Shown here: positions 3,169 through 60,117 of the stretch, piece after piece | Position numbering within the stretch: position 1 is the first letter of the stretch | Layout: each line of letters opens with the position of its first letter | Source: Dietzia lutea | Lineage (GTDB): Bacteria > Actinomycetota > Actinomycetes > Mycobacteriales > Mycobacteriaceae | NCBI RefSeq assembly: GCF_003096075.1 | Contig: NZ_CP015449.1 | Coordinates: 2,845,001-2,909,000 of the forward strand | Reading direction: 5' to 3' | DNA length: 64,000 nt | Translations under genes and position numbers: made by a program | The notes under the pieces: model-generated | Told to the model about the DNA's origin: nothing | The model's input: only the letters and a program-made list of their open reading frames with translations | Databases searched by the model: none

Positions 3169-3869
3169 TCGAGCGAGCTGAGCCAGTCGCTGAGCACGCC
3201 GGCCAGCTGACCCGGCGCCTCCACGGGCAGCATATGTCCGGTCTCCGCGATCTCCACGTAGGTCACCTGCGGCGCCGAGTTCTTCTCCGCCCACTGCCGC
3301 TGCTCGTCGGTGGGCACCACCTGATCGTCCGAGGCGCCGACGATCAGCACCGGGCACGACGCCGTCGCGGGAAAGTCCCAGCGGTCGGGCCGGGACCCGA
3401 TGGCCACCGAGTGCGCGGCGAACCGCTCGGGCCCGTACACCCGAGCAGCGCGCAATCGCTCGGCGCGGACTTGCGGGTCCTGTCCGCGGTCGCCGTAGTA
3501 GACGGCCTCCATACCGTCGAGGGCGATCTCCTCATACTCCTCCTGGCTCAGGCCCGCCGCCCGAGCGGCCCGCGCTGCCGCGGACTCCGGGTCCTCGGCC
3601 CCCACCGGCGCGGTGACCAGCACGAGCCCGGCCAGCAACTCCGGGTGTCGTTCGGCCAGGTGCATGGCCACAACTCCGCCGAGGGAATGCCCGACCACCA
3701 CGCTGCCGGCCGCGACCTGCTCGCCCACCTCGTCGACGAGCGCGTCGAGGTCGGCCACGGCCGGAAGGTCGAGGGCCGTGGCGCACAGCCCGCCGGGCAG
3801 CGCGTCGATGACCGGGGACCACGTCTGCGCATCGCCGTGTAGGCCGGGAAGGAACACCAGGGTCGTCAT
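3162..3869 (-). CDS. Alpha/beta hydrolase
   Basis: A 235-residue single-domain alpha/beta hydrolase, normal length for the family. The N-terminal strand TLVFLPGLHGDAQTW carries the HG-type oxyanion loop. GHSLGG is the nucleophile elbow with the catalytic Ser, VGASDDQVVP supplies the acid and AETGHMLPVEAP the catalytic His. The ATG at 3869 is chosen because it directly precedes the first core strand; the longer frame upstream adds unstructured sequence. The substrate cannot be told; esters or lactones are typical. It stands alone on the minus strand between decayed regions and looks intact. Confidence 0.85.
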   Translation of the reverse strand: MTTLVFLPGLHGDAQTWSPVIDALPGGLCATALDLPAVADLDALVDEVGEQVAAGSVVVGHSLGGVVAMHLAERHPELLAGLVLVTAPVGAEDPESAAARAARAAGLSQEEYEEIALDGMEAVYYGDRGQDPQVRAERLRAARVYGPERFAAHSVAIGSRPDRWDFPATASCPVLIVGASDDQVVPTDEQRQWAEKNSAPQVTYVEIAETGHMLPVEAPGQLAGVLSDWLSSLEG

Positions 3870-4022
3870 GAGCCCGACCGTACGCGGGCCGACAGCAGCC
3901 AGCGCCCGACCAGTAGATTCAGCACCAGCCGAGGTGCCCGGGGGCGTTCGCACCGCGCGAGTGGTGGCGCCCCGTACCTGCGGGCCAGTCAGACTGAGGT
4001 CGTCCACCTGGCGTTCAGTCAC

Positions 4023-4574
4023 GTGCGTCCGGTGGTGAGCACGTACATGGGCGACCTGGGCGAGGCCGTGCGCGACGGCGAGTCGGGGCTGCTCGTGCCC
4101 CTACCCCCGGGCGACCTGGCGGCGCTAGCCCGGGCGCTGGAGCGCCTGCTGGTGAAGTCCGGCATCCCCGTCTACACCGCCGACGCCGACACCATGCGGC
4201 ACCGGGGCTTTTGGGAGCGGATCACAGCCGAAGTGGGTGCGGTCCCGAGGCACTTCGCGTACCCGAACGGCGGACCGTCGGACTTACTGGACCCAGACGT
4301 CGCGGCGGTCGCTGACGCGGGGTTCGTCAGCGCGGTAACCACCAGCGAGGGGATCCACTACGCAGACTCGGATCGCTTCCGGCTCCTGCGGTTCAACGTG
4401 CACGAAGAGCGTTTCTGCGCGCAGACCGGCTTTGTCTCCCATGGTGCCGGACCGGCACGCGAGCACAACCGGAGATCTCCGCATACCGCCATCGAGAAGC
4501 GTCTCTTGGGCCGAAACCAGCCCGTTCGACTCGCATTCAGGGCGGACGAATACCGCGTCGCCGCTCCGGTTTGA
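4023..4574 (+). pseudogene. Chimera of a GT4 glycosyltransferase tail and a polysaccharide deacetylase tail
   Basis: Residues 1-43 match the UDP/GDP-sugar-binding C-terminal segment of GT4 glycosyltransferases (GDLGEAVRDGESGLLVP, then PGDLAALARALERLL). From about position 4152 the same frame continues as the C-terminal part of a NodB-type polysaccharide deacetylase: RHFAYPNGGPSDLL, an ADAGFVSAVTTSEG strand and a FRLLRFNV segment. The catalytic half of both enzymes is missing, so this is an in-frame fusion of two gene tails after a deletion. Both families belong in polysaccharide loci, so this probably marks lost genes at the left edge of the locus that starts at 4768. Confidence 0.65.
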
Positions 4575-4767
4575 AGCAGACGTACCAGTCTCAGCGAGGT
4601 CCCGCCAGCACACCCCAGCAAATCTGCGCCGCCGCCGAGCAGGCCGGAGCCAGATCTGACATTTTTTCTTTAAGGACACGACCATTCGGGGCTACTAGCA
4701 ACTGGACGATCAGAAAAAACGCCGGTGCGGCCTACACTGACTGGGTGACACCGAGTCGGAAGGTCCT

Positions 4768-5925
4768 ATGAGCGATCGCATCTTTATGTCTAAGGCGCAT
4801 ATCACCGACGCCGAAGAAGAAGCAGTCCGCCGAGCAATCCGCTCCGGATGGGTCGCGCCACTTGGCCCCGAGGTCGACGCGTTCGAACTGGAAGTCGCCG
4901 ACCGGGTCGGAGTGAAGGGTGCGCTCGCACTGTCCTCAGGAACTGCCGCACTTCACTTGGCGCTCCTCGAACTTGGCGCGAGACCGGGCACAGCTGTAGT
5001 GGTATCTTCAATGACCTTCGCCGCCTCGGCTAACGCGGTCGCGTACACCGGTGCTGAGCCTGTCTTTGTCGATTCGCAAAAAACCGATGGCAACATTGAT
5101 CCCGAACTACTTTTCGACGCTATCGACACTCTCCACGCCGAAGGGACCGAAGTCGTCGCGGCAATGACGGTTGACCTCATCGGGCGCACATGCGACTACA
5201 ACACCTTAGAGGCGGGACTCGCGGAGCGAGGTGTACCGCTTTTGGAGGACGCAGCAGAGTCGCTGGGCTCATCTATAGCGGGCCGGGCAGCAGGCTCGTT
5301 CGGACGTGCCGCAGCGTTGTCGTTCAACGGCAACAAGATCATGACTACTTCCGGCGGCGGAATGCTGCTCTCGAACGACGAACAGCTGCTCGAGCGGGCT
5401 CGGTATCTGTCGACTCAGGCGCGGCAGCCAGTCGCCTGGTATGAGCACACCGAGATAGGATACAACTACCGTCTGTCGAATATCCTCGCTGCCATCGGAC
5501 GTGCACAGCTTGGCCGATTAGACGAAATGATCGCCCGTCGCCGAGACATACGCAAGCAATATATGAGGGCATTTTCCGGCCTAGATGTCCGGTTCCTCGG
5601 TACAGCCGACACCGAGGGTGAACAGATCGAAAACTGCTGGCTCACGGGAATCGTGCTGGGTGATTCGATCACTAGATCACCTGACGACATCGTCGCTTCA
5701 CTGAGTGAAGCAGGCATTGAGGTACGCCGTCTGTGGAAGCCAATGCACCTCCAGCCCGTCTTTGCCAACGCGCGGGCGTTCACGAACGGCGCATCCGAGC
5801 ATCTATTTGCGCGCGGACTTACTTTGCCCAGCGGATCCGCTCTAACGGATTCAGAGGTTGAACGCGTAATAACCGCACTCCTGAATAACTTCGAAAGCCC
5901 ACTGAGCGACCAGGCCACTCGATAG
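4768..5925 (+). CDS. PLP-dependent sugar aminotransferase, DegT/DnrJ family (PglE-like)
   Basis: 385 residues, full length for the DegT/DnrJ/EryC1/StrS family. LALSSGTAALHLAL near residue 53 binds the cofactor phosphate, EDAAESLGS (Asp161) contacts the pyridine nitrogen, and the Schiff-base lysine is Lys190 in LSFNGNKIMTTSGGG. The family transfers an amino group from glutamate to a keto-sugar nucleotide. Next to a PglC-like transferase and a PglD-like acetyltransferase, the likely substrate is UDP-4-keto-6-deoxy-GlcNAc, made by the dehydratase at 24258-26117. GGAAGG lies just upstream of the ATG. It heads a tightly packed + strand set and has lower GC than the window average. A different 3- or 4-keto sugar is possible. 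Confidence 0.85.
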   Translation: MSDRIFMSKAHITDAEEEAVRRAIRSGWVAPLGPEVDAFELEVADRVGVKGALALSSGTAALHLALLELGARPGTAVVVSSMTFAASANAVAYTGAEPVFVDSQKTDGNIDPELLFDAIDTLHAEGTEVVAAMTVDLIGRTCDYNTLEAGLAERGVPLLEDAAESLGSSIAGRAAGSFGRAAALSFNGNKIMTTSGGGMLLSNDEQLLERARYLSTQARQPVAWYEHTEIGYNYRLSNILAAIGRAQLGRLDEMIARRRDIRKQYMRAFSGLDVRFLGTADTEGEQIENCWLTGIVLGDSITRSPDDIVASLSEAGIEVRRLWKPMHLQPVFANARAFTNGASEHLFARGLTLPSGSALTDSEVERVITALLNNFESPLSDQATR

Positions 5926-5937
5926 GAGCGCCTGAAG

Positions 5938-6576
5938 ATGACTTCAAGACCTTCCGCGACTCCAACATTATTCGACAGGAGCAAGCGCGCTTTCGACGTG
6001 TTGGCTTCTTCACTAGCCCTCATAGTCACGGCACCGGTAACGATCGTCCTCAGCGTACTCATCGCAGTGAAACTCGGCCGCCCCGTCTTGTTCCGCCAGG
6101 CACGCCCGGGTCAACATGGCGAAGTGTTCGAACTCGTCAAATTCCGCACGATGTTAAACCCAGATCCGAGCCGGGGCATCGAGACAAACGAAGATCGTAT
6201 GACCGCCTTCGGCTCTAAGCTAAGGAACTGGAGCCTAGACGAACTGCCGAGTCTGTGGAACATTCTTACTGGGGATATGTCGTTGGTTGGCCCGCGGCCG
6301 CTATTAACTACCTACCTACCGCTTTACACCGCAGAACAAGCCCGTCGTCATGAAGTTAGACCCGGGTTGACGGGGCTTGCTCAGGTCAACGGTCGAAATC
6401 AGCTCGATTGGGAATCCCGATTCGAGTTTGACGTAGAATATGTAGATAATCGGTCGTGGCGGCTCGATGCGAAGATACTTGCCCTGACCTTTCAGAAGGT
6501 CTTGAAGCGCGAGGGAATCGCTACCACTGGCCACGTAGTTGGCGCTCCGTTCCAAGGGCGCGAGGACACCCAGTGA
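5938..6576 (+). CDS. Initiating sugar-phosphate transferase (PglC/WcaJ-type)
   Basis: 212 residues, the short monotopic form of the bacterial sugar transferase family. A hydrophobic re-entrant segment spans about residues 20-46 (FDVLASSLALIVTAPVTIVL). The conserved core follows: LVKFRTM, SLDELPSLWNILTGDMSLVG, PRPLL and the VRPGLTGLAQVNGR block. The enzyme moves a sugar-1-phosphate from UDP-sugar to undecaprenyl phosphate at the inner membrane, starting the repeat unit. The short size and the neighbours (PglE-like upstream, PglD-like overlapping downstream) suggest UDP-diacetylbacillosamine as donor. It starts 12 bp after the previous stop and its TGA overlaps the next GTG, implying translational coupling. 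Confidence 0.88.
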   Translation: MTSRPSATPTLFDRSKRAFDVLASSLALIVTAPVTIVLSVLIAVKLGRPVLFRQARPGQHGEVFELVKFRTMLNPDPSRGIETNEDRMTAFGSKLRNWSLDELPSLWNILTGDMSLVGPRPLLTTYLPLYTAEQARRHEVRPGLTGLAQVNGRNQLDWESRFEFDVEYVDNRSWRLDAKILALTFQKVLKREGIATTGHVVGAPFQGREDTQ

Positions 6577-7226
6577 CCCGTGTCGTAATCGCCGGCGCCG
6601 GCGGGTTCGGGCGCGGCGTCCATTCGTGGCTGATCAGCTCGCCTCGGCACCTCGCCCAAGGCGGTGTCACGGACATTGTTTTCATAGACGACGCGCCACC
6701 TCGCGAACATCTTTATGCGGAGCACGTCGGTCGAATATCGGATTTTCAACCAAGTCCGGACGACCGAATCCTATGCGCAATTGGCGCTCCAGCAGTACGC
6801 CGAACTGTCGTCCAATTGCTAGCGCGACGGGCAGCTAAATTCCACACTTTCGTGGCCGACACAGCCGTCTTAGCGCACGGGGTCTATGCGGGCGAAGGCG
6901 CAATAGTCTGCCCCGGGACAGTAGTCTCGGCAGACGCATACATTGGCCCACACGTGCACATAAATTTCAATTGCTCAGTTGGACACGACACTACAATAGG
7001 CGAGTTTTCCACGCTAAGCCCGTCCGTAAATATAATGGGGGAGGTAAACGTCGGCGACTCAGTCTTCCTGGGAGGCAGCTGCTCTGTTCTGCCCAGAATA
7101 GAGGTAGGACGGCTCAGCACAATCGCGGCTGGAGCGACGGTAGTCGAGAGCGTTCTCAGTTCCACGACAGTGGCAGGGACTCCCGCTCGAGCATTGGCAA
7201 GGGGAAGGGAAGCCGATGACGCTTAG
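6573..7226 (+). CDS. PglD/NeuD-family sugar N- or O-acetyltransferase
   Basis: 217 residues from the GTG that overlaps the preceding stop (GTGA). The N-terminus has a Rossmann-like strand-loop (RVVIAGAGGFGRGVHSW) that binds the sugar nucleotide in PglD. The C-terminal half is a left-handed beta helix of hexapeptide repeats (GEGAIVCPGTVVSADAYIG, then HVHINFNCSVGHDTTIGEFS) that binds acetyl-CoA. His in NCSVGHDTTIG matches the catalytic base position of PglD. Predicted role: acetylate the 4-amino sugar made by the aminotransferase upstream, giving a UDP-diacetylbacillosamine-type donor. O-acetylation as in NeuD cannot be ruled out. Its 3' end overlaps the next gene by 11 bp. Confidence 0.82.
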   Translation: MTRVVIAGAGGFGRGVHSWLISSPRHLAQGGVTDIVFIDDAPPREHLYAEHVGRISDFQPSPDDRILCAIGAPAVRRTVVQLLARRAAKFHTFVADTAVLAHGVYAGEGAIVCPGTVVSADAYIGPHVHINFNCSVGHDTTIGEFSTLSPSVNIMGEVNVGDSVFLGGSCSVLPRIEVGRLSTIAAGATVVESVLSSTTVAGTPARALARGREADDA

Positions 7227-8526
7227 GGAAACAGTTTTCTGGGCCTTCGATCGCGCTCGCGGCGGCCACATTAAACGAGAAATACTTGAAATAGAAGCTG
7301 CTGTCAACCAGCCGTCGGCAAAACAGCAACAAGATGCGCTAGAGGCGCAGCTTCTACATGCTGGCTCTAACGTGCCGTTCTATGAACATCTCAGAGGAAT
7401 TCGCAAGCTGGAAGAGTTTCCTGTTGTCAATAAAGCAACTATCAAGGAGGCCGGTGATCGATTTATTGCAACCGGGACTGACATTCTGAGTTGCACAACC
7501 GCATCAACGAGTGGTTCAACTGGCACGCCGTTTTCTATCTTGCACGACCGCCGCAAGCGTCGCCGAGTATCGGCGGATGCGATCTACTGGGGTCGCCAGG
7601 CAGGCTACGAATTGGGGCTCCCGCTCGCTCACCTAAAAGTATGGAGTGACCGGAACCGGATCACGCCGGCGACTCGCAGATTTCGGAACATCATTCCCAT
7701 CGACACCACGAAGCTCACTGGCGAGGAGATACTCGCCGCGCTAACCGCGGCGGCTCGCAACCGACCACTGTCGGTTATATCGTACGCCTCAAGCCTCGAC
7801 CTACTCGCTCGTTCGTTGGAGTCCGAGACTTTCAATGGAACTCGGCGTTCTCCTCTCCCGCGAATCGCTTCAATCGTGGCGCAGTCCGAGCATTTACCTT
7901 CGGAAGCACGGCGCCTTCTCCGTGAGCATCTCGGAGTCGACCCGGTAAGCCGGTATGGCTTAGAGGAGATTGGGATAGTCGGTCAGCAAGCCCGAAACGG
8001 AAACAACGACTACAGGGTCAACTCCTCTTCCGTCGTAGTTGAGATTCTAGAGGATGCGAGCCCAGAGCCAGCCCCCCCTGGCCGGGTTGGGCGAATTGTA
8101 GTAACCGAGCTCATTAACCGAGCGCAACCTTTGATCCGGTACGACACCGGTGATCTAGGGGCATTCCGTGTTGACGAGCATGGTCGCCTTGATACCACCA
8201 AACTCGCAGTAGTCGAAGGCCGTAAACTTGATCAAGTTTATGACGCCGACGACCGTCCGCTGACTTCAATGGTGATGTACAACCTTTGGTGGCGCTTCCC
8301 TGAGATTAGGCAGTACCAGCTCGTACAGAAGGGGCGCGCCGACTATCTACTGCGCCTGAACGTTTCACCCGGATTCAACGACGAAGCTGACGTCATTCAC
8401 CGGTTTAAGGAAATCGTAGGCGCTTCCGCCAACGTCGAAGTAGAGCTCACTACCGAGAGTTTTGTTCTCTCATCCGGTAAACGCAAGAGTGTTGTCAGCA
8501 ACTACAAGCCGGCGATGCAGCGTTAG
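7216..8526 (+). CDS. CapK/PaaK-like AMP-forming adenylating enzyme
   Basis: 436 residues. The AMP-binding P-loop is TSGSTGTP at residues 98-105; SRYGLEEIG and IRYDTGDLGAFR are the further adenylate-forming motifs. It resembles phenylacetate-CoA ligase-like CapK proteins found in capsule and O-antigen loci. There they are thought to activate a carboxylic acid for attachment to a sugar or amino group, but the substrate is unknown. It overlaps the acetyltransferase gene and is followed after 25 bp by a glycosyltransferase, so it belongs to the same transcript. A usual length and intact motifs suggest it works. Low-GC codon use matches its neighbours and not the flanks. Confidence 0.8.
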   Translation: MTLRETVFWAFDRARGGHIKREILEIEAAVNQPSAKQQQDALEAQLLHAGSNVPFYEHLRGIRKLEEFPVVNKATIKEAGDRFIATGTDILSCTTASTSGSTGTPFSILHDRRKRRRVSADAIYWGRQAGYELGLPLAHLKVWSDRNRITPATRRFRNIIPIDTTKLTGEEILAALTAAARNRPLSVISYASSLDLLARSLESETFNGTRRSPLPRIASIVAQSEHLPSEARRLLREHLGVDPVSRYGLEEIGIVGQQARNGNNDYRVNSSSVVVEILEDASPEPAPPGRVGRIVVTELINRAQPLIRYDTGDLGAFRVDEHGRLDTTKLAVVEGRKLDQVYDADDRPLTSMVMYNLWWRFPEIRQYQLVQKGRADYLLRLNVSPGFNDEADVIHRFKEIVGASANVEVELTTESFVLSSGKRKSVVSNYKPAMQR

Positions 8527-48570: not shown

Positions 48571-49995
48571 ATGCCATCCTCCTTCTCTTCGATCGTCGAA
48601 CGCTACAAGGAGCAGGTAATAGCCATCGGCGAACTCTCCAAGAATCTGACCCCCGAACTCGACAGGCTCCGAAAAGAGCCACCATTCCAGAAAAGAGTTC
48701 TTCAATCTATAGAACTGTTCGATCGCGAAAAGCAGAAGGTAGCGATTTCCGCAGTGGTAGCCACGATCGACATATGGGAGGCCCTAACCACGGCAGATCC
48801 AGAGGAAGTCAAGAGGGTCGTCGACCAGGCCGATGCCATCGACGATCGACTCTCTTTTGAATTCGACGGCAGTGAGCTGTCCATCGGAGGAACCGACCGA
48901 GATTTGCGCAGATCGGTCATGGACACTTTCGACGGACTCCAGAGTAGGCTAATCAGACCCTCCCACAAAACGCTACTTCGCAGATCACTCCTGGCAATGC
49001 TCGTTGGCACCTTTGAGTCATATATTGGAGATTTGTATCGCAAAAACCTCGAACTGCATCCCGGAATAATTAACTCAAGCGAGAAGTCGTTCTCTCTAAA
49101 GGAAATCCAAGCGTTCTCATCAATTGACGAGGCACAGCAAACCCTCATCGACCGCGAAGTGGACCAGTTTACTCGGAAGGGTTTTGACGATTGGGGAGAA
49201 TGGCTTTCCAAGCCCCCCATCGAGCTGGACAGGAAGCTGAAATCGTCAGATTGGGCGGCCGCCCGTGAAATTTACGAGCGCCGAAACCTTGTCCTTCACC
49301 GATCATGTAGGGTAAGTTCGCAGTACCTATCGAAAGTCTCGACCGAGTTCAGTCGCGAACTCTCCGTTGGCGACAGACTGGATGTCGATGAAGAATACCT
49401 CGACAATGCGCTCGATCTTCTACTTAAACTCGGATTGACGCTAGGGCTCCGAATGTGGTCAAGGCTCGCAAGCAATGACGACGAACTTGGACAATGGGCC
49501 ACCGCAGCGCAAGTCGAGTTTCTTGACGCAAAGAATCCGTCAGTTACCCAAGCAATAAGTGACGCTTTGGATCACAATAGGCTCAAAGCTTCGGCCCAAC
49601 TGCAGGTCCGCGTGAATTCATGGCTGGCCGAGAAAGAACTTCACGGGGTTGAATCGATTCGCGGAGAAGTCCGAGCTTGGGATACTGGCCCACTTTCGCC
49701 CCTGTATCAGGTCGCCCAGGCGGCACTTCTCGACGACCTTAGTCACGCCGAAGCGGGAGTTAGGGCCCTAATCAAGGAAGAAAAACTCTCAATAGTCGAC
49801 GCGCTCCAATGGCCCCTATTCGCGTCTCTCAGAGAGAGCGGCGCGATCGACGACCTGCTCTACCCCGATGAGAATCGTGCGGTAAGTCCCGACGAACGAG
49901 ATTCTCGAGTCACACTCTCTCGTGAGGCCCCAGATAATTCGCCCGTCGATGCACTAGAAGGCGAATCGGGCGACGCTGAGGAACCTATGCCATGA
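48571..49995 (+). CDS. Large hypothetical protein with a HEPN-type RNase motif
   Basis: 474 residues, no membrane segment. Around residues 136-243 it looks like a HEPN helical bundle: LLRRSLLAMLVGTFESYIGD begins one helix and EIYERRNLVLHRSCRVSSQY holds the R-N-x3-H motif (Arg238, Asn239, His243) used by HEPN RNases and MAE/RiboL-PSP families. The C-terminal third is helical and acidic. Base use is clearly more AT-rich than its neighbours, suggesting transfer. HEPN proteins of this layout are common in phage defence and toxin-antitoxin systems; no partner gene is seen beside it. Confidence 0.65.
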   Translation: MPSSFSSIVERYKEQVIAIGELSKNLTPELDRLRKEPPFQKRVLQSIELFDREKQKVAISAVVATIDIWEALTTADPEEVKRVVDQADAIDDRLSFEFDGSELSIGGTDRDLRRSVMDTFDGLQSRLIRPSHKTLLRRSLLAMLVGTFESYIGDLYRKNLELHPGIINSSEKSFSLKEIQAFSSIDEAQQTLIDREVDQFTRKGFDDWGEWLSKPPIELDRKLKSSDWAAAREIYERRNLVLHRSCRVSSQYLSKVSTEFSRELSVGDRLDVDEEYLDNALDLLLKLGLTLGLRMWSRLASNDDELGQWATAAQVEFLDAKNPSVTQAISDALDHNRLKASAQLQVRVNSWLAEKELHGVESIRGEVRAWDTGPLSPLYQVAQAALLDDLSHAEAGVRALIKEEKLSIVDALQWPLFASLRESGAIDDLLYPDENRAVSPDERDSRVTLSREAPDNSPVDALEGESGDAEEPMP

Positions 49996-52276: not shown

Positions 52277-53536
52277 GTGACCACATCGCGGTCGTTCGAT
52301 ACCTGCCGGTCACCCGGTGCCGCGTGGCACCCCCTGCCCCACGCGTCTCCCGCCGGCCCCTGTCGGACGGTGCGCGCGCCCGACTCATCAGGACGCTCTC
52401 CCATGCCCTCCGAACTGCCCACCATTACCGCCGCGACCCGCCGCCAACTGTCGTTCGCTCTCGCTCTACTCGGCAGAGGCGCGTTCGCCATGGCCCCGCT
52501 GGAATCGGTCGCCCTGCCGGACTCTCTCGAGAGCATCGACGACGAGGCGTTCGTCAGCAATCAGCTGGCGACGGTGACCCTGCCCCGGCACCTCACCCAC
52601 CTGGGCGAGTACGCATTCAAGAACAACAAGCTGACCTCGCTGAGCCTGCCGGACTCCCTCACCGCGGTCAGGCGCGATGCGTTCGCCAACAACCTCTTGA
52701 AAGCCGTGACGCTGCCCGACGGCCTCACGACCATCGGCGACGGGGCGTTCATCGACAATCAGCTGACGTCGGTCACGCTTCCGGACACCGTCACCAGCGT
52801 CGGCGAGTGGGCATTCGCCAACAACGCGTTGACGTCGGTCAGGCGGCCCGACGGTGTCCGCAGCATCGGTCGGTCTGCGTTCGTCAGCAACAGGCTGACC
52901 TCGGTGACTCTGCCCGACGCTCTCACCACCGTGAGCAGATACGCGTTCGCCAACAACCGGCTGACGTCGGTCACCCTGCCCGAGGGACTCACCGCCATCG
53001 AGTGGGGCGCTTTCATGGACAACCGCCTCGAGACGGTCGAGATCCCCGCCCGGGTCGCCGAGATCGGCCCGCTGGCTTTCTGGAACAACCCCGGGTTGAC
53101 CCGCGTCCGGTTCACCGGGCCCGCACCAAGCATCAGTGGCGCCGAGGAATCGGGGCCGTCACTCGCAGAATCTCCGGACCTGATCGTCGAGTTCGCCGCG
53201 CGGTATCAGCAGGACGTTGGGGGCTACACGACGCCTGAGTGGCACGGCTACCCCACGGTCCCCGCGTACACCGTCCTCTTCGACACCGGCGACGGTCCTG
53301 CCGTGGACCCGGTGACCATCTGGCCCGGCGAGGGCTTCGAGCCGCCCGCCCCAGCGCGGCCGGGCTACACCTTCACCGGCTGGTACACCTCGCCCGACCT
53401 GGCCACCCGATTCGATCCCGACGCCGCCGCCAGCCTCGACGAGGACATCACCGTCTACGCCGGATGGGAGCGCAGCAGCGGCCCGGACGGTGGCGGCTCC
53501 TCGGCCCTTGGCAGTCTCGGCAGTCTCGGCAGCTGA
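52277..53536 (+). CDS. BspA-type leucine-rich repeat protein with a Listeria-Bacteroides repeat
   Basis: 419 residues. Nine tandem ~22-residue repeats of the form LTSVTLPDxLTxVxxxAFxx (residues ~72-275) make a BspA/TpLRR solenoid. Next is one InlB B-repeat-like module (YTVLFDTGDG to TGWYTSPDLATRF and ITVYAGWE), then a GSSALGSLGSLGS tail. Such proteins are usually exported adhesins, yet no signal peptide is visible after the GTG (52277, GGGAGAG seven bases upstream) or after the inner ATG (52403). The 5' end may have been exchanged. The repeats are coded by 66-bp DNA units that can recombine. Confidence 0.8.
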   Translation: MTTSRSFDTCRSPGAAWHPLPHASPAGPCRTVRAPDSSGRSPMPSELPTITAATRRQLSFALALLGRGAFAMAPLESVALPDSLESIDDEAFVSNQLATVTLPRHLTHLGEYAFKNNKLTSLSLPDSLTAVRRDAFANNLLKAVTLPDGLTTIGDGAFIDNQLTSVTLPDTVTSVGEWAFANNALTSVRRPDGVRSIGRSAFVSNRLTSVTLPDALTTVSRYAFANNRLTSVTLPEGLTAIEWGAFMDNRLETVEIPARVAEIGPLAFWNNPGLTRVRFTGPAPSISGAEESGPSLAESPDLIVEFAARYQQDVGGYTTPEWHGYPTVPAYTVLFDTGDGPAVDPVTIWPGEGFEPPAPARPGYTFTGWYTSPDLATRFDPDAAASLDEDITVYAGWERSSGPDGGGSSALGSLGSLGS

Positions 53537-54215: not shown

Positions 54216-54917
54216 ATGAGCACCTCGCCCGAGGCCCCGCAGCCCCAGCCCGCCGCCAAGAACCAGAACCGTCGGAAGAAGGCCCGCGTGATCATGGCCT
54301 CCGGTCTCGTCCTGGGCATCGGCGCCGCCGTGACCCTTGCCGCGTGGTCGGACACCGTGTGGGGATCGGGCACGTTCGGCACCGAGGGCAACGCCTTCAA
54401 CACCCAGGGCTCGTTCGACGGCGGCACCGATTGGAAGGAGCACGTCTCCTCGACCGGCACCGGCGACAACGGGCCGGGAGCCATGTCTTTCGCCCAGAAC
54501 GCCAACGCCCTCATCCCCGGCGTTCCCGTTTACCAGCTGGTCGGACTGCACGAGGCTGAGGGGAATCTCGGCGCCGACATCGTCCTCAAGCGGACCAATG
54601 CCGACACCAGTGCGCTGAAGGACGTCGTGAAGGTCGCTGTCGCCGACGCCGGCACCGGCGAGACCGCACCGGCGTGTGGAGCCGGCACCACCTTCGGTGC
54701 ACCCGTGACGATCGGGGCGCCTGCCTCCCAGATGCTCACCACCGACATCGCTGCGGATGGCTACCGCTGGGTGTGCTTCTCCGCGACCCTCGATGACAAG
54801 GCCACCCCGGCGGTCTCCAACAAGGTGTCCCAGCCGATTCTCTGGGAGTTCGCGGCCACCTCCAAGAACGCACCCGCCACCCCGACCGCTACCACCAGCC
54901 CGGCCAACGTCAGGTAG
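54216..54917 (+). CDS. SipW-dependent exported protein (alternate signal peptide, TasA-like role)
   Basis: 233 residues. A charged Pro-rich start and RRKKARVI lead to the helix MASGLVLGIGAAVTLAAWSD, the signature of SipW-dependent substrates, whose cleavage site lies near A-x-W-x-D. The mature domain begins WGSGTFGTEGNAFNTQGS and is rich in beta-strand, Thr and Gly with two Cys (APACGAG, WVCFSA), ending in a Thr/Pro tail. Family parallels are TasA/CalY fibre proteins and the actinobacterial alternate-signal exported proteins. The ATG at 54216 follows GAGAAAGG. First gene of the unit. Confidence 0.82.
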   Translation: MSTSPEAPQPQPAAKNQNRRKKARVIMASGLVLGIGAAVTLAAWSDTVWGSGTFGTEGNAFNTQGSFDGGTDWKEHVSSTGTGDNGPGAMSFAQNANALIPGVPVYQLVGLHEAEGNLGADIVLKRTNADTSALKDVVKVAVADAGTGETAPACGAGTTFGAPVTIGAPASQMLTTDIAADGYRWVCFSATLDDKATPAVSNKVSQPILWEFAATSKNAPATPTATTSPANVR

Positions 54918-55024
54918 TCCGCGCCGCGTAGGCGACGGCGGGTGACCCGCCGTCGCCCTCGCCGACACCCGCTCAATTTCCTCCTCCCCTCCCCCCTCAC
55001 CTCCGCCCTCGTCAGGAGATCGCC

Positions 55025-55621
55025 ATGAGCGCACAGACTGCGCCTTCCCCGTCCGAGGCGTCCGTCTCGGCAGTTGCCTCTCATCGAGTGCCACGTGGCC
55101 GGTCAGTGTGGTCGTACATCGGCGGCGGCATCGGCAACCTGCTCGCGGCCGGCGGCGTGGTGTGCATCGCGCTGGTGATCCTCGCGGTGTCGATGAACAT
55201 CTCGCTGATCATGTTTAAGACCGGCTCGATGTCGCCGACGATCCCCACCGGGTCCGTCGCAGTGGTCAAGGAGATCTCCGCCGACGAGATCCGCGTGGGC
55301 GACGTCATCACGGTAGATCGCGAAGAGGGCCAACTCCCCGTCACCCACCGGGTGGTGGAAGTGCACACGCAGTCACCCGGCGAGGCACTCGTGCAGATGA
55401 AGGGTGACGCCAACCCCATCGTCGACCCGGGCATGTATCGGGTCGAGACAGTCCGCAAGGTCCTCTGGTCCGTGCCCGAGCTCGCCAAGGTGATCGTGTG
55501 GTTCGGCAACCCCTACGTCCTGGGCGGGATCAGCCTGATCGCCGCGCTCGGCGTGCTGTGGGCGTTCTGGCCGAAGAAGGACGAGGGGGACGACGCGAGC
55601 GAGAGGTCCGGAGATGCGTAG
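55025..55621 (+). CDS. SipW-type signal peptidase I
   Basis: 198 residues, two membrane helices (about 35-58 and 158-185). Catalytic Ser68 is in FKTGSMSPTIPTGS. The second dyad position is His108 in LPVTHRVVEV, where ordinary signal peptidases have Lys; Ser-His is the ER/SipW type. KGDANPIVDPG is the following family box. It should cleave the two exported proteins encoded on either side of it. Starts 107 bp after the first substrate gene and overlaps the next gene by eight bases. Confidence 0.9.
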   Translation: MSAQTAPSPSEASVSAVASHRVPRGRSVWSYIGGGIGNLLAAGGVVCIALVILAVSMNISLIMFKTGSMSPTIPTGSVAVVKEISADEIRVGDVITVDREEGQLPVTHRVVEVHTQSPGEALVQMKGDANPIVDPGMYRVETVRKVLWSVPELAKVIVWFGNPYVLGGISLIAALGVLWAFWPKKDEGDDASERSGDA

Positions 55622-57329
55622 GTCACGCGGCATCCTTCGTCTGAGCCTGGCATTCGTCGGTGTCCTGGCGCTGATGGCCACGGTGGCCCTGAGCGCCATC
55701 ACCATTCGCCCTACAGAGGCGACGTGGCAGGACCGAGTCATGGGGACCTCCCAATTCGGGACCAGCGAAATCGCTGGCCAGAACTTCGCAAGGTCCGCCG
55801 CGGCTTATGGTTCCCTCAAGCCCTGGCTCTCCGGCGCGAGGAACCTCGGGTCGGTTCAGCGCGAAGTAGCTCCGCCCACCCATTGGATCGCGCGCAACGA
55901 AGTGCCCTCTAACTGGCGCAATGAGTCCGCCGGCGACGCCTGGACCTCGGTTCGGGCAAGTGCTGACACTCGGACGTGCGCGCGTCGTGAAAACCAGCAG
56001 CCTGACGGGTGCCAGTTCGAAGATCTCCCGGATGGCCCCGGAACTAGCTACGCCGTGTCCCAGACCAGGGATCTCGAGGCGACAGCTTGGGCCCTGTTAG
56101 TGAGGGTGCCTCTCGTTCGTACTTCTTCCACGCCGATCACCGCTACCGCTTCGTGCGCTCCTGGCGTGGACGGCGATGCCTCGATTTCCGGTTCTCCAAT
56201 TACGATCGGCGGATTTCTTTGGAACTCTGGTGACCAAATTTCGATACCCAGTGAAGGCCGTCAGGTCTCCTTCACCAGGAACATCGGGCTGTATACGTAC
56301 AAGGGAGTCCTCCAGCATCACAGTGTTGAAAAGAACGGCTATGCCCTGTCCCAACTCCGACTCTTCGTCGAAGCATCAGGAAACGTTCTCGGCTCCGACC
56401 CTTGGACCTTCCATGTAATTCTCGCCCACGCCGAATGTGGCGCTTCTAGTTCCTTTACTGGTGCACCAACCCGCCCCAGCACCTCTTGGCCCAGCCCGCT
56501 CCCAGAGCAACTCGGTCGGGTATCTGCCATGCGGACTGCCGAAGTCTTGCAAACAGAGACCCAGGCAGCGCCGGCTAGTGAAACTCCCCCGGGCAACGTC
56601 GACGAGACGGAGTTGCCTTCGTTGGAGGACGTCGCGGACGACGAGTCGTCGACAGACGAGGAGGGCAAATCGACCGAGGCGGCCCCGAGCCCGACCGCCT
56701 CGCCGCAACCGACCCAGTCCTCAGAACCGCTCGCCGCGGAGCCGGAGACTGTGGACTCAGAGCCTGCAACGTCGGAGCCGGCGACTTCTGAGCCGACCGT
56801 GCCCACCACCGTTCCCGAGGGTCCGCAGAACCCAGAGGCGGTGCGCGTCGGCCGGGAGTTCGAAGTGGTCACCCGCGACGGCCTCGAGCTCGGCACCGCA
56901 AGGATCGACGATATCGTCCGCACGCCCGGCTGCGGAGCGGAGCTAACCCTGAGCATCCGCACCTCTGCCGAGGCGGGCCCCGACCGGTGGGCGTCCATCG
57001 GCCCGGGCGACTTCGCCGAGGTCCGCCCCAGCGGGTCGATCCGCAGGGCCGGCACCGTCACCTCGGACTGTGATCAGTCGACCAACTCCAGGATCGCAGC
57101 GCTCTCGGCGAGCCGGGAGTACGAGATCGTCATCGCGATAGCGCTCGACGACTCCGCGCAGCAGGCCATGCTCCGACCCGACGGCACCGCCGGGTGGATG
57201 TTCGACCTGCCGCCGCTGCCTAAGGTGACCGCCACGACCAGCCCGTCGGCGCCGGCGACCACCTCGAGCCCGACCACAGACGCGAGCGAGCCCAGCGTCG
57301 AGACGTCGGTGACCACCGCCGAGGCATGA
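55614..57329 (+). CDS. Large exported protein with SipW-type signal, second substrate
   Basis: 571 residues. The signal helix LSLAFVGVLALMATVALSAI is followed by EATWQDRVMGTSQFGTSEIA, which matches the first substrate (AAWSDTVWGSGTFGT) at W-x-D-x-V-x-G-x3-F-G-T. A folded region to ~290 contains four Cys. A long acidic Pro/Ser/Thr/Glu linker (about 315-415) follows, then a second beta-rich domain (REFEVVTRDGLELGTARIDD) and a Thr/Pro/Ser-rich end. No membrane anchor or sortase motif at the C-terminus. It could be an accessory or tip protein to the fibre-like first protein (inference). Confidence 0.75.
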   Translation: MRRSRGILRLSLAFVGVLALMATVALSAITIRPTEATWQDRVMGTSQFGTSEIAGQNFARSAAAYGSLKPWLSGARNLGSVQREVAPPTHWIARNEVPSNWRNESAGDAWTSVRASADTRTCARRENQQPDGCQFEDLPDGPGTSYAVSQTRDLEATAWALLVRVPLVRTSSTPITATASCAPGVDGDASISGSPITIGGFLWNSGDQISIPSEGRQVSFTRNIGLYTYKGVLQHHSVEKNGYALSQLRLFVEASGNVLGSDPWTFHVILAHAECGASSSFTGAPTRPSTSWPSPLPEQLGRVSAMRTAEVLQTETQAAPASETPPGNVDETELPSLEDVADDESSTDEEGKSTEAAPSPTASPQPTQSSEPLAAEPETVDSEPATSEPATSEPTVPTTVPEGPQNPEAVRVGREFEVVTRDGLELGTARIDDIVRTPGCGAELTLSIRTSAEAGPDRWASIGPGDFAEVRPSGSIRRAGTVTSDCDQSTNSRIAALSASREYEIVIAIALDDSAQQAMLRPDGTAGWMFDLPPLPKVTATTSPSAPATTSSPTTDASEPSVETSVTTAEA

Positions 57330-57396: not shown

Positions 57397-60117
57397 ATGG
57401 CGACTAAGGGGCAGAAGGAGTCGGTGAAGGTCGACGGGCGGACCGTGCGGTTCACCCACCCCGACAAGGTGCTCTACGAGGCCACCGGCACCACCAAGGC
57501 CGACGTGCTGGAGTACTACACGGCCGTCGCGCCGCTGCTCATGACCTACGCCGGCAACCGGCCCGTCACCCGCAAGCGCTGGCCCGACGGCACTGACGCC
57601 GACTCCTTCTTCGAGAAGAACCTGCCCCAGCACGCGCCCGACTGGGTGCCGAGCGTGACCATCGAGCACTCCTCGCGCACCGTCCGTTACCCGGTGCTCG
57701 ACTCCCCCGCGACCCTGGCCTGGTTCGCCCAGCAGGCCGCCCTCGAGCTGCACGTGCCGCAGTGGACTCTCACGAACGGTGAGCCGGGGAGGACGCGGCG
57801 GATCGTCATCGACCTCGATCCGGGTGAGGGCGTGGAACTGGATACGACGGCGAAGGTCGCCCTGCGCGTCCGAGATTTGCTGTCCGAGGCGGGACTCGAG
57901 TCGTTCCCGGTCACCAGTGGCTCCAAGGGGATCCACCTCTACGCCCGGCTGGACAAGGCCGTCACCGCCGCCAGCGCCTCCAAGGTGGCCAAGGAGATCG
58001 CGCAGTCCCTCGCCAAGCAGACCCCGGACCTGGTCACCGCCACCATGAAGCGCTCCATCCGCGACGGCAAGGTGTTCGTCGACTGGAGCCAGAACAGCGG
58101 CGCCAAGACCACCGTCGCGCCGTACTCCCTACGCGGGCGGGCCGAGCCGTGGGTGGCCGCGCCCCGCTCGTGGGAGGAACTCGGCGACGGCGGCCTGACG
58201 CACCTGCACTGGGACGACGTCCTCAAGCGACTGGACTCCGACGGCGACCTCCTCGACGGCCTCGAGGGCACGGCCAAGAAGGGCGGCTCCGCCAAGAAGA
58301 AGCCCGCCACGAAGGCCCCCGCCAAGAAGACCCCGGCCGAGAAGAAGGCGTCCTCGTCCGGCTCGGCGTCGCGGGCCAAGAAGTCGTCCGGGGGCAAGAA
58401 GAGCTCGTCGTCGTCGGATGACGAGGACCCCGACCGCGCGGACACCGACGCTGACGACACCGACGGCTCCACCGGCGACACCGACTCGGACGGCGCGGAC
58501 ACCCGCGCCGCCGAGGCCGAGGGCTGCGACGCCTCCCCCACCAGCGAGGACGCGGTGGTCACGAGCCTGGCGGAGTACCGGCGCAAGCGGGATCGCCGTC
58601 GCACGCCCGAGCCGTTCGAGGACGAGGTCGAGACCGATCGCTCAGAGGGCGACGGGCCCATCTTCGTGATCCAGGAACACCACGCGCGCCGCCTGCACTA
58701 CGATCTGCGGCTCGAACACCACGGGGTCCTGGCCTCGTGGGCCGTGCCCAAGAACCTGCCCACCGAGCCCAAGGACCGCCGGCTCGCGGTGAACACCGAG
58801 GACCACCCGCTCGGTTACGAGACGTTCGAGGGCACCATCCCCAAGGGCGAGTACGGCGCCGGCCACATGACCATCTGGGACCGCGGCACCTACGAGTGCG
58901 AGAAGTGGCGCGAGGACGAGATCATCGTGTGGCTCGACGGCGACAAGGTCTCCGGCCGGTACGTCCTCGTCCGCACGAGCGCCGAGAAGAACCAGTGGAT
59001 CGTGCAGTACATGAAGGACCAGTCGCCCGACTCCTTCTACGGCGGCCGCGACAACCCGAAGTCGCGGTATCCCGAAGGCGACAAGTCCGCGTCGCGCTCC
59101 GGCGGCAGCGGCTCCGGAGGTTCCGGCCGCGCGTCCCGCTCCGACGACTCCGACCGATCCGACAGCGCCGCCCGCCCCGACACGCCCCCGCTCCCCATGA
59201 TCCCCACGGCCGCCGAGGTCACCGGGCTGCCCGACGACACGTGGGCGTTCGAGGGCAAGTGGGACGGTTACCGCGTGACCGTGGCGACCAACGGCGAGCA
59301 GACCCGCCTGGTCAGCCGCAACGGCAACTCCATGGACTGGCTCGCCGACGGCTTCCCCGGACTGGCCGAGACACTCGAGAAGCCCGCCGTGATCGACGCG
59401 GAGCTCGTCATCCTCGACTCCAACGGCGTGCCCGACTTCGCCTCGCTGGCCAAGCAGGCCGCCGCCGAGGGCAAGGACTCGTCTCTTCCGCCGGTCGAGC
59501 TGTTCGTCTTTGACGTGCTCGAGGTCGACGGCGTGGATCTGCAGTCGCAGCCGTGGGAGCGTCGCCGCGAGGTGCTGGACCTGCTCGCCCCGGCGTTGAC
59601 CGAGGTCGAGCGTGTGCACGTGCCCGACGTCCTCGACGGGCCCGGCGACCGCGCCCTGGCCGAGGCCGAGGAGTACGGCTGGGAGGGCATCGTCGCCAAG
59701 CGTCGCGACTCGAAGTACGAGTCAGGCCGGCGGTCGAAGGCGTGGCTCAAGCAGAAGCTGCTCACCACCACCGAGGCGGTCGTCGGCGGCTGGCGGCCCG
59801 GCAAGGGCGGACGCTCCGGCTCGCTGGGCTCCCTGCTGCTGGGCGTGCCCGCCGAGACGGGGCTGGCCTACATCGGGCGCGTCGGCACCGGGTTCACCGA
59901 CAAGCAGGCGCGCGCCCTGCTCGACGAGCTCGAGCCCCTGCGCCGGAAGACCAGCCCCTTCGTGGAGCAGCTGCCCGCTGACGCCCGCCGCGATGCCATC
60001 TGGGTCCTACCCAAGATCGTCGTGGAGGTCCGCCACCAGGGCTTCACCGACGACGGCAACTTGCGCCAACCCTCCTGGCGCGACATCCGCCGCGACAAGC
60101 TGCCAGGGGACTTGTAG
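57397..60117 (+). CDS. ligD: Multifunctional NHEJ DNA ligase LigD (polymerase-phosphoesterase-ligase)
   Basis: 906 residues with domain order polymerase, 3'-phosphoesterase, ligase, as in mycobacteria. The polymerase primase-like domain (~1-285) has IVIDLDPGEG and VTSGSKGIHLYARL. A Lys/Ser/Asp-rich linker (~290-395) follows. The phosphoesterase (~415-565) has QEHHARRLHYDLRLEHHG and PKGEYGAGHMTIWDRG. The ligase has catalytic Lys621 in FEGKWDGYRVTV and the OB-fold GGWRPGKGGRSGSLGSL. With Ku (47221-48261) it repairs double-strand breaks. All key residues are present. Confidence 0.95.
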   Translation: MATKGQKESVKVDGRTVRFTHPDKVLYEATGTTKADVLEYYTAVAPLLMTYAGNRPVTRKRWPDGTDADSFFEKNLPQHAPDWVPSVTIEHSSRTVRYPVLDSPATLAWFAQQAALELHVPQWTLTNGEPGRTRRIVIDLDPGEGVELDTTAKVALRVRDLLSEAGLESFPVTSGSKGIHLYARLDKAVTAASASKVAKEIAQSLAKQTPDLVTATMKRSIRDGKVFVDWSQNSGAKTTVAPYSLRGRAEPWVAAPRSWEELGDGGLTHLHWDDVLKRLDSDGDLLDGLEGTAKKGGSAKKKPATKAPAKKTPAEKKASSSGSASRAKKSSGGKKSSSSSDDEDPDRADTDADDTDGSTGDTDSDGADTRAAEAEGCDASPTSEDAVVTSLAEYRRKRDRRRTPEPFEDEVETDRSEGDGPIFVIQEHHARRLHYDLRLEHHGVLASWAVPKNLPTEPKDRRLAVNTEDHPLGYETFEGTIPKGEYGAGHMTIWDRGTYECEKWREDEIIVWLDGDKVSGRYVLVRTSAEKNQWIVQYMKDQSPDSFYGGRDNPKSRYPEGDKSASRSGGSGSGGSGRASRSDDSDRSDSAARPDTPPLPMIPTAAEVTGLPDDTWAFEGKWDGYRVTVATNGEQTRLVSRNGNSMDWLADGFPGLAETLEKPAVIDAELVILDSNGVPDFASLAKQAAAEGKDSSLPPVELFVFDVLEVDGVDLQSQPWERRREVLDLLAPALTEVERVHVPDVLDGPGDRALAEAEEYGWEGIVAKRRDSKYESGRRSKAWLKQKLLTTTEAVVGGWRPGKGGRSGSLGSLLLGVPAETGLAYIGRVGTGFTDKQARALLDELEPLRRKTSPFVEQLPADARRDAIWVLPKIVVEVRHQGFTDDGNLRQPSWRDIRRDKLPGDL

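Follow-up and report, generated by a model that had tools for sequence, protein, structure and literature searches.

A 64,000-nucleotide stretch of the 3.9 Mb genome of Dietzia lutea (NCBI RefSeq assembly GCF_003096075.1, contig NZ_CP015449.1, positions 2,845,001 to 2,909,000; hereafter the window) was found to carry three plus-strand genes that form a cassette, as listed in Table 1. A gene for a small exported substrate (SUB) is followed by one for a SipW-type signal peptidase and one for a large exported partner (BIG). The peptidase and BIG genes overlap by 8 bases, with the BIG start inside the end of the peptidase gene; this start is preceded by GAGAGG, 7 bases ahead, and AGGAG precedes the peptidase start. 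A first-pass annotation of the window had placed a Ser-His signal peptidase between two exported proteins. This was confirmed by the gene calls, by a score of 71.8 bits (cut-off 51.85) against TIGR02228, the archaeal/endoplasmic reticulum-like signal peptidase I model, and by the invariance of S68 and H108 in all 22 aligned peptidases. We take these two residues to be the catalytic Ser-His pair. The hydrophobic peaks of the enzyme lie at residues 39-63 and 164-182. It fell below the cut-off of the Bacillus SipW equivalog, NF046067 (49.4 bits, cut-off 190), and, judged from its sequence, is of the SipW/Sec11 type.

SUB scored 25.7 bits against TIGR04088 (cut-off 19), a model of SipW-dependent substrates. 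Its cut position was set by analogy with TasA, whose mature chain begins at residue 28 according to an excerpt of PMC10151520. Exactly two Cys are present in 83/83 aligned rows, and conservation extends 12 residues past the cut, to F12 of mature SUB. The AlphaFold2 model has a mean predicted local distance difference test (pLDDT) score of 88.8, and its nearest structure chains include 7ueg, 8aur, cannulae and Fim/Pap pilins. Fibre subunits ranked first in both fold comparisons, by a small margin. The likeness to TasA suspected in the first pass is, therefore, supported for the modeled SUB fold within that margin. The TasA equivalog NF046066 gave no match to SUB at E 1 and matched one of the 83 aligned rows (E 0.0052). 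No Pfam family was found in SUB and, thus, no known wall-binding domain.

BIG proved to be as large as first described, with a long acidic linker of 109 residues, 23 of them Asp/Glu and 3 Lys/Arg. Its model has two folded parts. Exactly four Cys occur in the N-domain in 25/25 rows, and the C-terminal parts vary between genera. In fold comparisons the N-domain had a best score of 5.9 versus 5.2 or less for barrel proteins, none outstanding, and Foldseek returned E 0.03 or worse; the domain is therefore assigned to no known fold, nor is it called a new one. BIG had no Pfam family above cut-off and no match at E 1 in the NCBIfam library, whose inclusion of a TapA/YqxM model was not checked; TIGR04088 matched 1 of the 25 aligned BIG rows (E 0.0052). 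Profile comparison aligned the BIG and SUB arms over 24 columns (E 4.8e-5, with a probability of only 67.9), and the likeness of the two proteins was confined to this N-terminal arm. By sequence comparison, the domain bearing the four Cys is not detectably related to SUB. Because BIG matches SUB only in the arm, a TapA-like role fits better than that of a second fibre subunit, and the protein is best interpreted as a starter and anchor resembling TapA, a kind of protein for which no family was found. Iterated BIG profiles were dropped, as they drifted into SUB within three rounds; the clean profile comparison showed only the arm to be shared.

Table 1. Features of the cassette in the window, and fused genes at related loci
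Feature	Position	Strand	Remarks
SUB	54216-54917	+	233 aa
SUB signal peptide	54216..54341	+	residues 1-42, predicted cut between A42 and A43; TIGR04088 match at residues 28-56
SUB mature N-terminal arm AWSDTVWGSGTFGT	54342..54383	+	predicted donor strand; mature residues 1-10 pLDDT <50
SUB pilin-like beta domain and short tail	54384..54917	+	AlphaFold2 model
12-bp stem-loop	54931..54957	+	directly 3' of SUB stop codon; lacks a T run; may act as attenuator or 3' protector
SipW-type signal peptidase	55025..55621	+	198 aa; S68 codon 55226-55228, H108 codon 55346-55348; two hydrophobic helices
BIG	55614-57329	+	571 aa
BIG signal peptide	55614..55721	+	residues 1-36, predicted cut between A36 and T37; hydrophobic peak residues 11-31; PTEA/TWQD site read from sequence
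BIG N-terminal arm TWQDRVMGTSQFGTSEIAG	55722..55778	+	candidate donor strand; mature residues 1-18 pLDDT <50
BIG N-domain	55779..56471	+	four conserved Cys; found only in mycolate family
BIG acidic Pro/Ser/Thr linker	56478..56804	+	mature 257-361 pLDDT <50
BIG C-domain	56814..57254	+	MPT63/YjhA/YxkC-like beta sandwich
Fused peptidase-passenger genes	L099:5488-7221, L101:3975-5903, L136:6971-8266, L146:6959-8272		passenger with own hydrophobic helix

The two substrates had been said to share one motif right after the signal helix. A six-frame scan of the window found W-x-D-x-V-x-G-x3/4-FGT at two sites only, in SUB and BIG. Scored along BIG, the SUB motif segment gave 40 at that site and no more than 9 anywhere else; among 2000 shuffled BIGs, 2 reached 40. 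Among the cassettes listed, however, only two have the exact motif in both partners: that of the window and that of its nearest relative (L105, the same as L125, Dietzia sp. E1). The FGT part is local, and the general form is A/x-[WFY]-x-D, the slash marking the cut. Residues were counted with a site pattern that calls for Ala and, after one further residue, W, F or Y; 10/82 SUB and 2/24 BIG rows fell outside it. Immediately ahead of the cut Ala stood Leu or Val in all 72 fitting SUB rows and Glu or Asp in 18 of the 22 fitting BIG rows, the remaining four having Leu; small proteins downstream of the peptidase had Glu or Asp there in 21/26 fitting cases. Since the pattern itself requires W, F or Y, this count is circular and cannot test the aromatic, which by alignment is near-invariant in SUB (W2 of mature SUB). 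According to an excerpt of PMC10269814, cleavage by E. coli LepB is poor ahead of such an aromatic, and TasA, which is cut by SipW, carries one at that position. The arms of each cassette were also compared with those of others in 21 hand-picked cassettes, some with just one of their SUBs, and the closer match within cassettes vanished with one cassette per genus.

Single-sequence searches of 121 genomes (that of the window and relatives) gave matches to SUB in 28 genomes, to the peptidase in 56 and to BIG in 15. We then searched 301 genomes drawn evenly from the mycolate family with profiles (cut-offs: peptidase E 1e-10, SUB E 1e-5, BIG N-domain E 1e-4). The peptidase was found in 124, the BIG N-domain in 44 and SUB in 127, a profile that also picks up subunits of the second-type loci described below. 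SUB and peptidase occurred together in 123 genomes, SUB only in 4, peptidase only in 1 and neither in 173. Homologues of the substrates regularly lacking such a peptidase would have spoken against a dedicated unit; the peptidase was present in 123/127 SUB genomes and 44/44 BIG genomes, all 44 of which had SUB as well. Two of the SUB-only cases are a piece with two stops (G040) and a 47-residue piece at a contig start (G696). At least 44 of the 48 BIG matches followed immediately on a peptidase match of the same orientation, counting profile matches up to 627 bases apart. The others were the back half of a copy that a transposase gene cuts in two (G003), a match at a contig start (G577), a 58-position piece with a stop (G688), and a copy whose N-domain is complete but whose first 29 residues gave no match, with a different gene upstream (G020). 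We conclude that the unit is real and specific, which confirms the original observation. At one relative (L113:8143-9456) the BIG gene is interrupted by an ISL3-type transposase gene (PF01610), at the same place as in Dietzia natronolimnaea (L173).

The unit had been proposed as a system of mycolate-bearing actinobacteria. This holds for BIG, which was found in 2/394 genomes of the class, both of the mycolate family, but not for the cassettes as such. Cassettes defined more broadly, as at least one SUB followed by a peptidase and then by a partner, were seen in Rhodococcus, Williamsia, Hoyosella, Plantibacter, Microbacterium, Leucobacter, Brevibacterium, Arthrobacter and others. A locus titled Kitasatospora arboriphila (L141) closely resembles Williamsia muralis in its cassette genes and is possibly contamination.

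What stands behind the peptidase was compared in 80 named loci, a set that excludes the second-type loci: 32 that we labeled mycolate by genus name, and 48 others, L141 included. L193 and L194 are one organism, and seven loci without a called peptidase gene were kept in n. An LPxTG protein that also has a membrane helix stood at or behind the peptidase in 18/48 non-mycolate and 0/32 mycolate loci. The peptidase frame was lengthened, and counted as fused above 340 aa, in 24/48 and 0/32, respectively; five were inspected (L136, L146-L148, L169). The fused proteins of L136 and L146-L148 have an ordinary signal peptide ahead of the passenger and LPRTG near the end. In the window, the LPxTG signal, the mark of sortase-built pilus subunits, is absent from SUB and BIG. 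The first-pass statement that no sortase or anchor is present thus stands for these proteins, but one sortase gene lies elsewhere in the genome, far from the cassette.

The genome also has a second SipW-type locus about 116 kb away (L122, G000:C1:2776000-2790000, about 3563-7657), which encodes two peptidases, three additional substrates and, at its end, a protein that belongs to no family; one L122 protein scored 108.7 bits against TIGR04089 (cut-off 60). In second-type loci of some relatives (L099 and L101, with L100 less clear), the peptidase is fused to a passenger in which a separate hydrophobic helix and an Ala-Trp/Ala-Tyr site are retained. This suggests release of the passenger by the fused enzyme; such SipW fusions are possibly self-releasing. 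The BIG profile gave no match to these passengers at E 0.1.

Fibres of this kind have been described from Bacillus, Clostridium and archaea. As far as the excerpts of PMC9674648 and PMC10151520 describe it, tapA-sipW-tasA of Bacillus subtilis resembles the Dietzia cassette in its SipW-type peptidase with two substrates, its overlapping partner and peptidase genes, the TasA-like fold of the major subunit (by a small margin) and a second protein that, in Dietzia, matches the subunit only in the N-terminal arm. In contrast, the Dietzia order is subunit-peptidase-partner. TapA, in the PMC10151520 excerpt, has one immunoglobulin (Ig) domain and one disulfide, whereas the 571-aa BIG has a four-Cys N-domain, an acidic linker and an MPT63-like C-domain. 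Of the marks of TapA, an N-terminal strand like that of the fibre subunit is found in the BIG arm, at a probability of only 67.9; a single Ig domain with a single disulfide is not, given four N-domain Cys in 25/25 rows and two folded parts in the model. CapP-TasA-CalY of Bacillus cereus is also a sortase-independent fibre with a SipW-processed partner, and an excerpt of PMC13082335 reports that the disordered C-part of CapP holds it to the wall. There, however, capP is transcribed apart from sipW-tasA, whereas BIG overlaps the peptidase gene; the likeness drawn here is one of description. sipW-bsaA of Clostridium perfringens offers a peptidase-linked polymerising matrix protein without LPxTG (excerpt of PMC7395162), but SUB did not match its model, TIGR04090, at E 1, and an L122 substrate did so weakly (15.9 bits, cut-off 60). 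Among the NCBIfam SipW-substrate models, SUB lies above the TIGR04088 cut-off and the L122 protein above that of TIGR04089, and the window BIG matched neither at E 1. In the open PMC literature, no study of a sortase-free surface fibre in these Actinobacteria was found among the matches listed.

We propose, with a probability of about 0.6, that the cassette builds a TasA-like, sortase-independent surface fibre with BIG as its TapA-like start and holder. Sec would export SUB and BIG as precursors tethered to the membrane. With an aromatic at the second position after the cut, both would be cleaved poorly by the ordinary signal peptidase, so that the neighbouring peptidase would be the one to free them. 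Each freed SUB may then put its arm into the next SUB by donor-strand exchange. Since BIG appears able to donate an arm and has no pilin domain to receive one, it would be placed at the fibre start, as TapA is, and its acidic linker and variable C-domain would fasten the fibre to the envelope. Of the earlier suggestion of a fibre or surface layer, the fibre is supported in part, by a SipW-type peptidase with dedicated neighbours and the TasA-like SUB fold; the surface layer gained no evidence either way. Two points lowered our confidence slightly: the circularity of the aromatic count, and two Dietzia genomes (G004 and G009) with a SUB match and no peptidase match.

BIG could instead be an adhesin at the tip or side of the fibre rather than its base, with the variable C-domain binding surfaces and the arm plugged into the fibre. 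A C-terminal part that varies by genus beside a shared four-Cys N-domain (25/25 rows) would agree with this, and the long acidic linker would suit a reach-out module. We consider it unlikely, however, because a donor-only protein in TasA fibres can stand only at the start, TapA is reported at the membrane (excerpt of PMC10151520), and an LPxTG protein takes the place at or behind the peptidase in 18/48 loci outside the mycolate genera. Another explanation is that no fibre is made: SUB and BIG would be two independent secreted matrix proteins with only a SipW-type cleavage signal in common, the arm likeness reflecting peptidase recognition. The restriction of the likeness to the stretch behind the cut, the loss of the within-cassette arm match with one cassette per genus and the small margin of the SUB fold match all fit this explanation, but conservation running 12 residues beyond the cut and fibre subunits topping both fold comparisons make it improbable. 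That the cassette makes a surface layer or coat has nothing specific in support and is very improbable, since SUB consists of a single small beta domain and a loose arm and, having no Pfam family, has no known wall-binding domain.

If SUB is the fibre subunit, a partial stop at the stem-loop behind its gene would hold it in excess over the peptidase and BIG. The intergenic stretch has a z score of -3.42. Such a stem was found in 6/8 Dietzia loci folded (z -1.9 to -5.6; L111 and L114 lack it), and two Williamsia loci gave z -1.5 and -1.9. On the RNAalifold stem of six Dietzia sequences, 95.5 percent of cells pair and 4/11 pairs show changes on both sides (shuffle mean 1.4; 4 reached by 6/500 shuffles), which, for six related sequences, is no more than suggestive. 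No sigma-70 promoters were found (0.4 expected), and there were 2 terminators (2.1 expected).

The gene next after BIG (57397-60117) was recognized as LigD by eye, not by a scan; in L107 and L108 its relative comes immediately after BIG, and in L110 it lies upstream of SUB. Upstream of the cassette, window positions 52403-53536 encode a BspA-type leucine-rich repeat protein with a List_Bact_rpt domain, and relative L108 has no called gene there. Farther upstream, the gene at 48571-49995 has a low third-position guanine-cytosine content (0.57) and a sub-threshold RiboL-PSP-HEPN match, adjoins a Ku-like gene (by eye), and may be a recent acquisition.

More tentatively, and with considerable doubt, actinobacterial TasA-like fibre systems could be widespread, with the base swapped to suit the envelope: an LPxTG-anchored protein, often fused to the peptidase, in genera that lack an outer mycolate layer, and BIG in the mycolate family. 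An acid instead of Leu before the cut Ala would then distinguish starters and other end proteins from subunits. As part of the same doubtful scheme, the fused enzyme may free its own passenger, and the linker and C-domain of BIG may hold the fibre in or under the mycolate layer. If the fibre proposal is correct, Actinobacteria would gain a sortase-free surface fibre, such a peptidase being present in 124/301 genomes of the family, and the question of how fibres are started and anchored would become testable by comparing the BIG, LPxTG and fused-peptidase versions.
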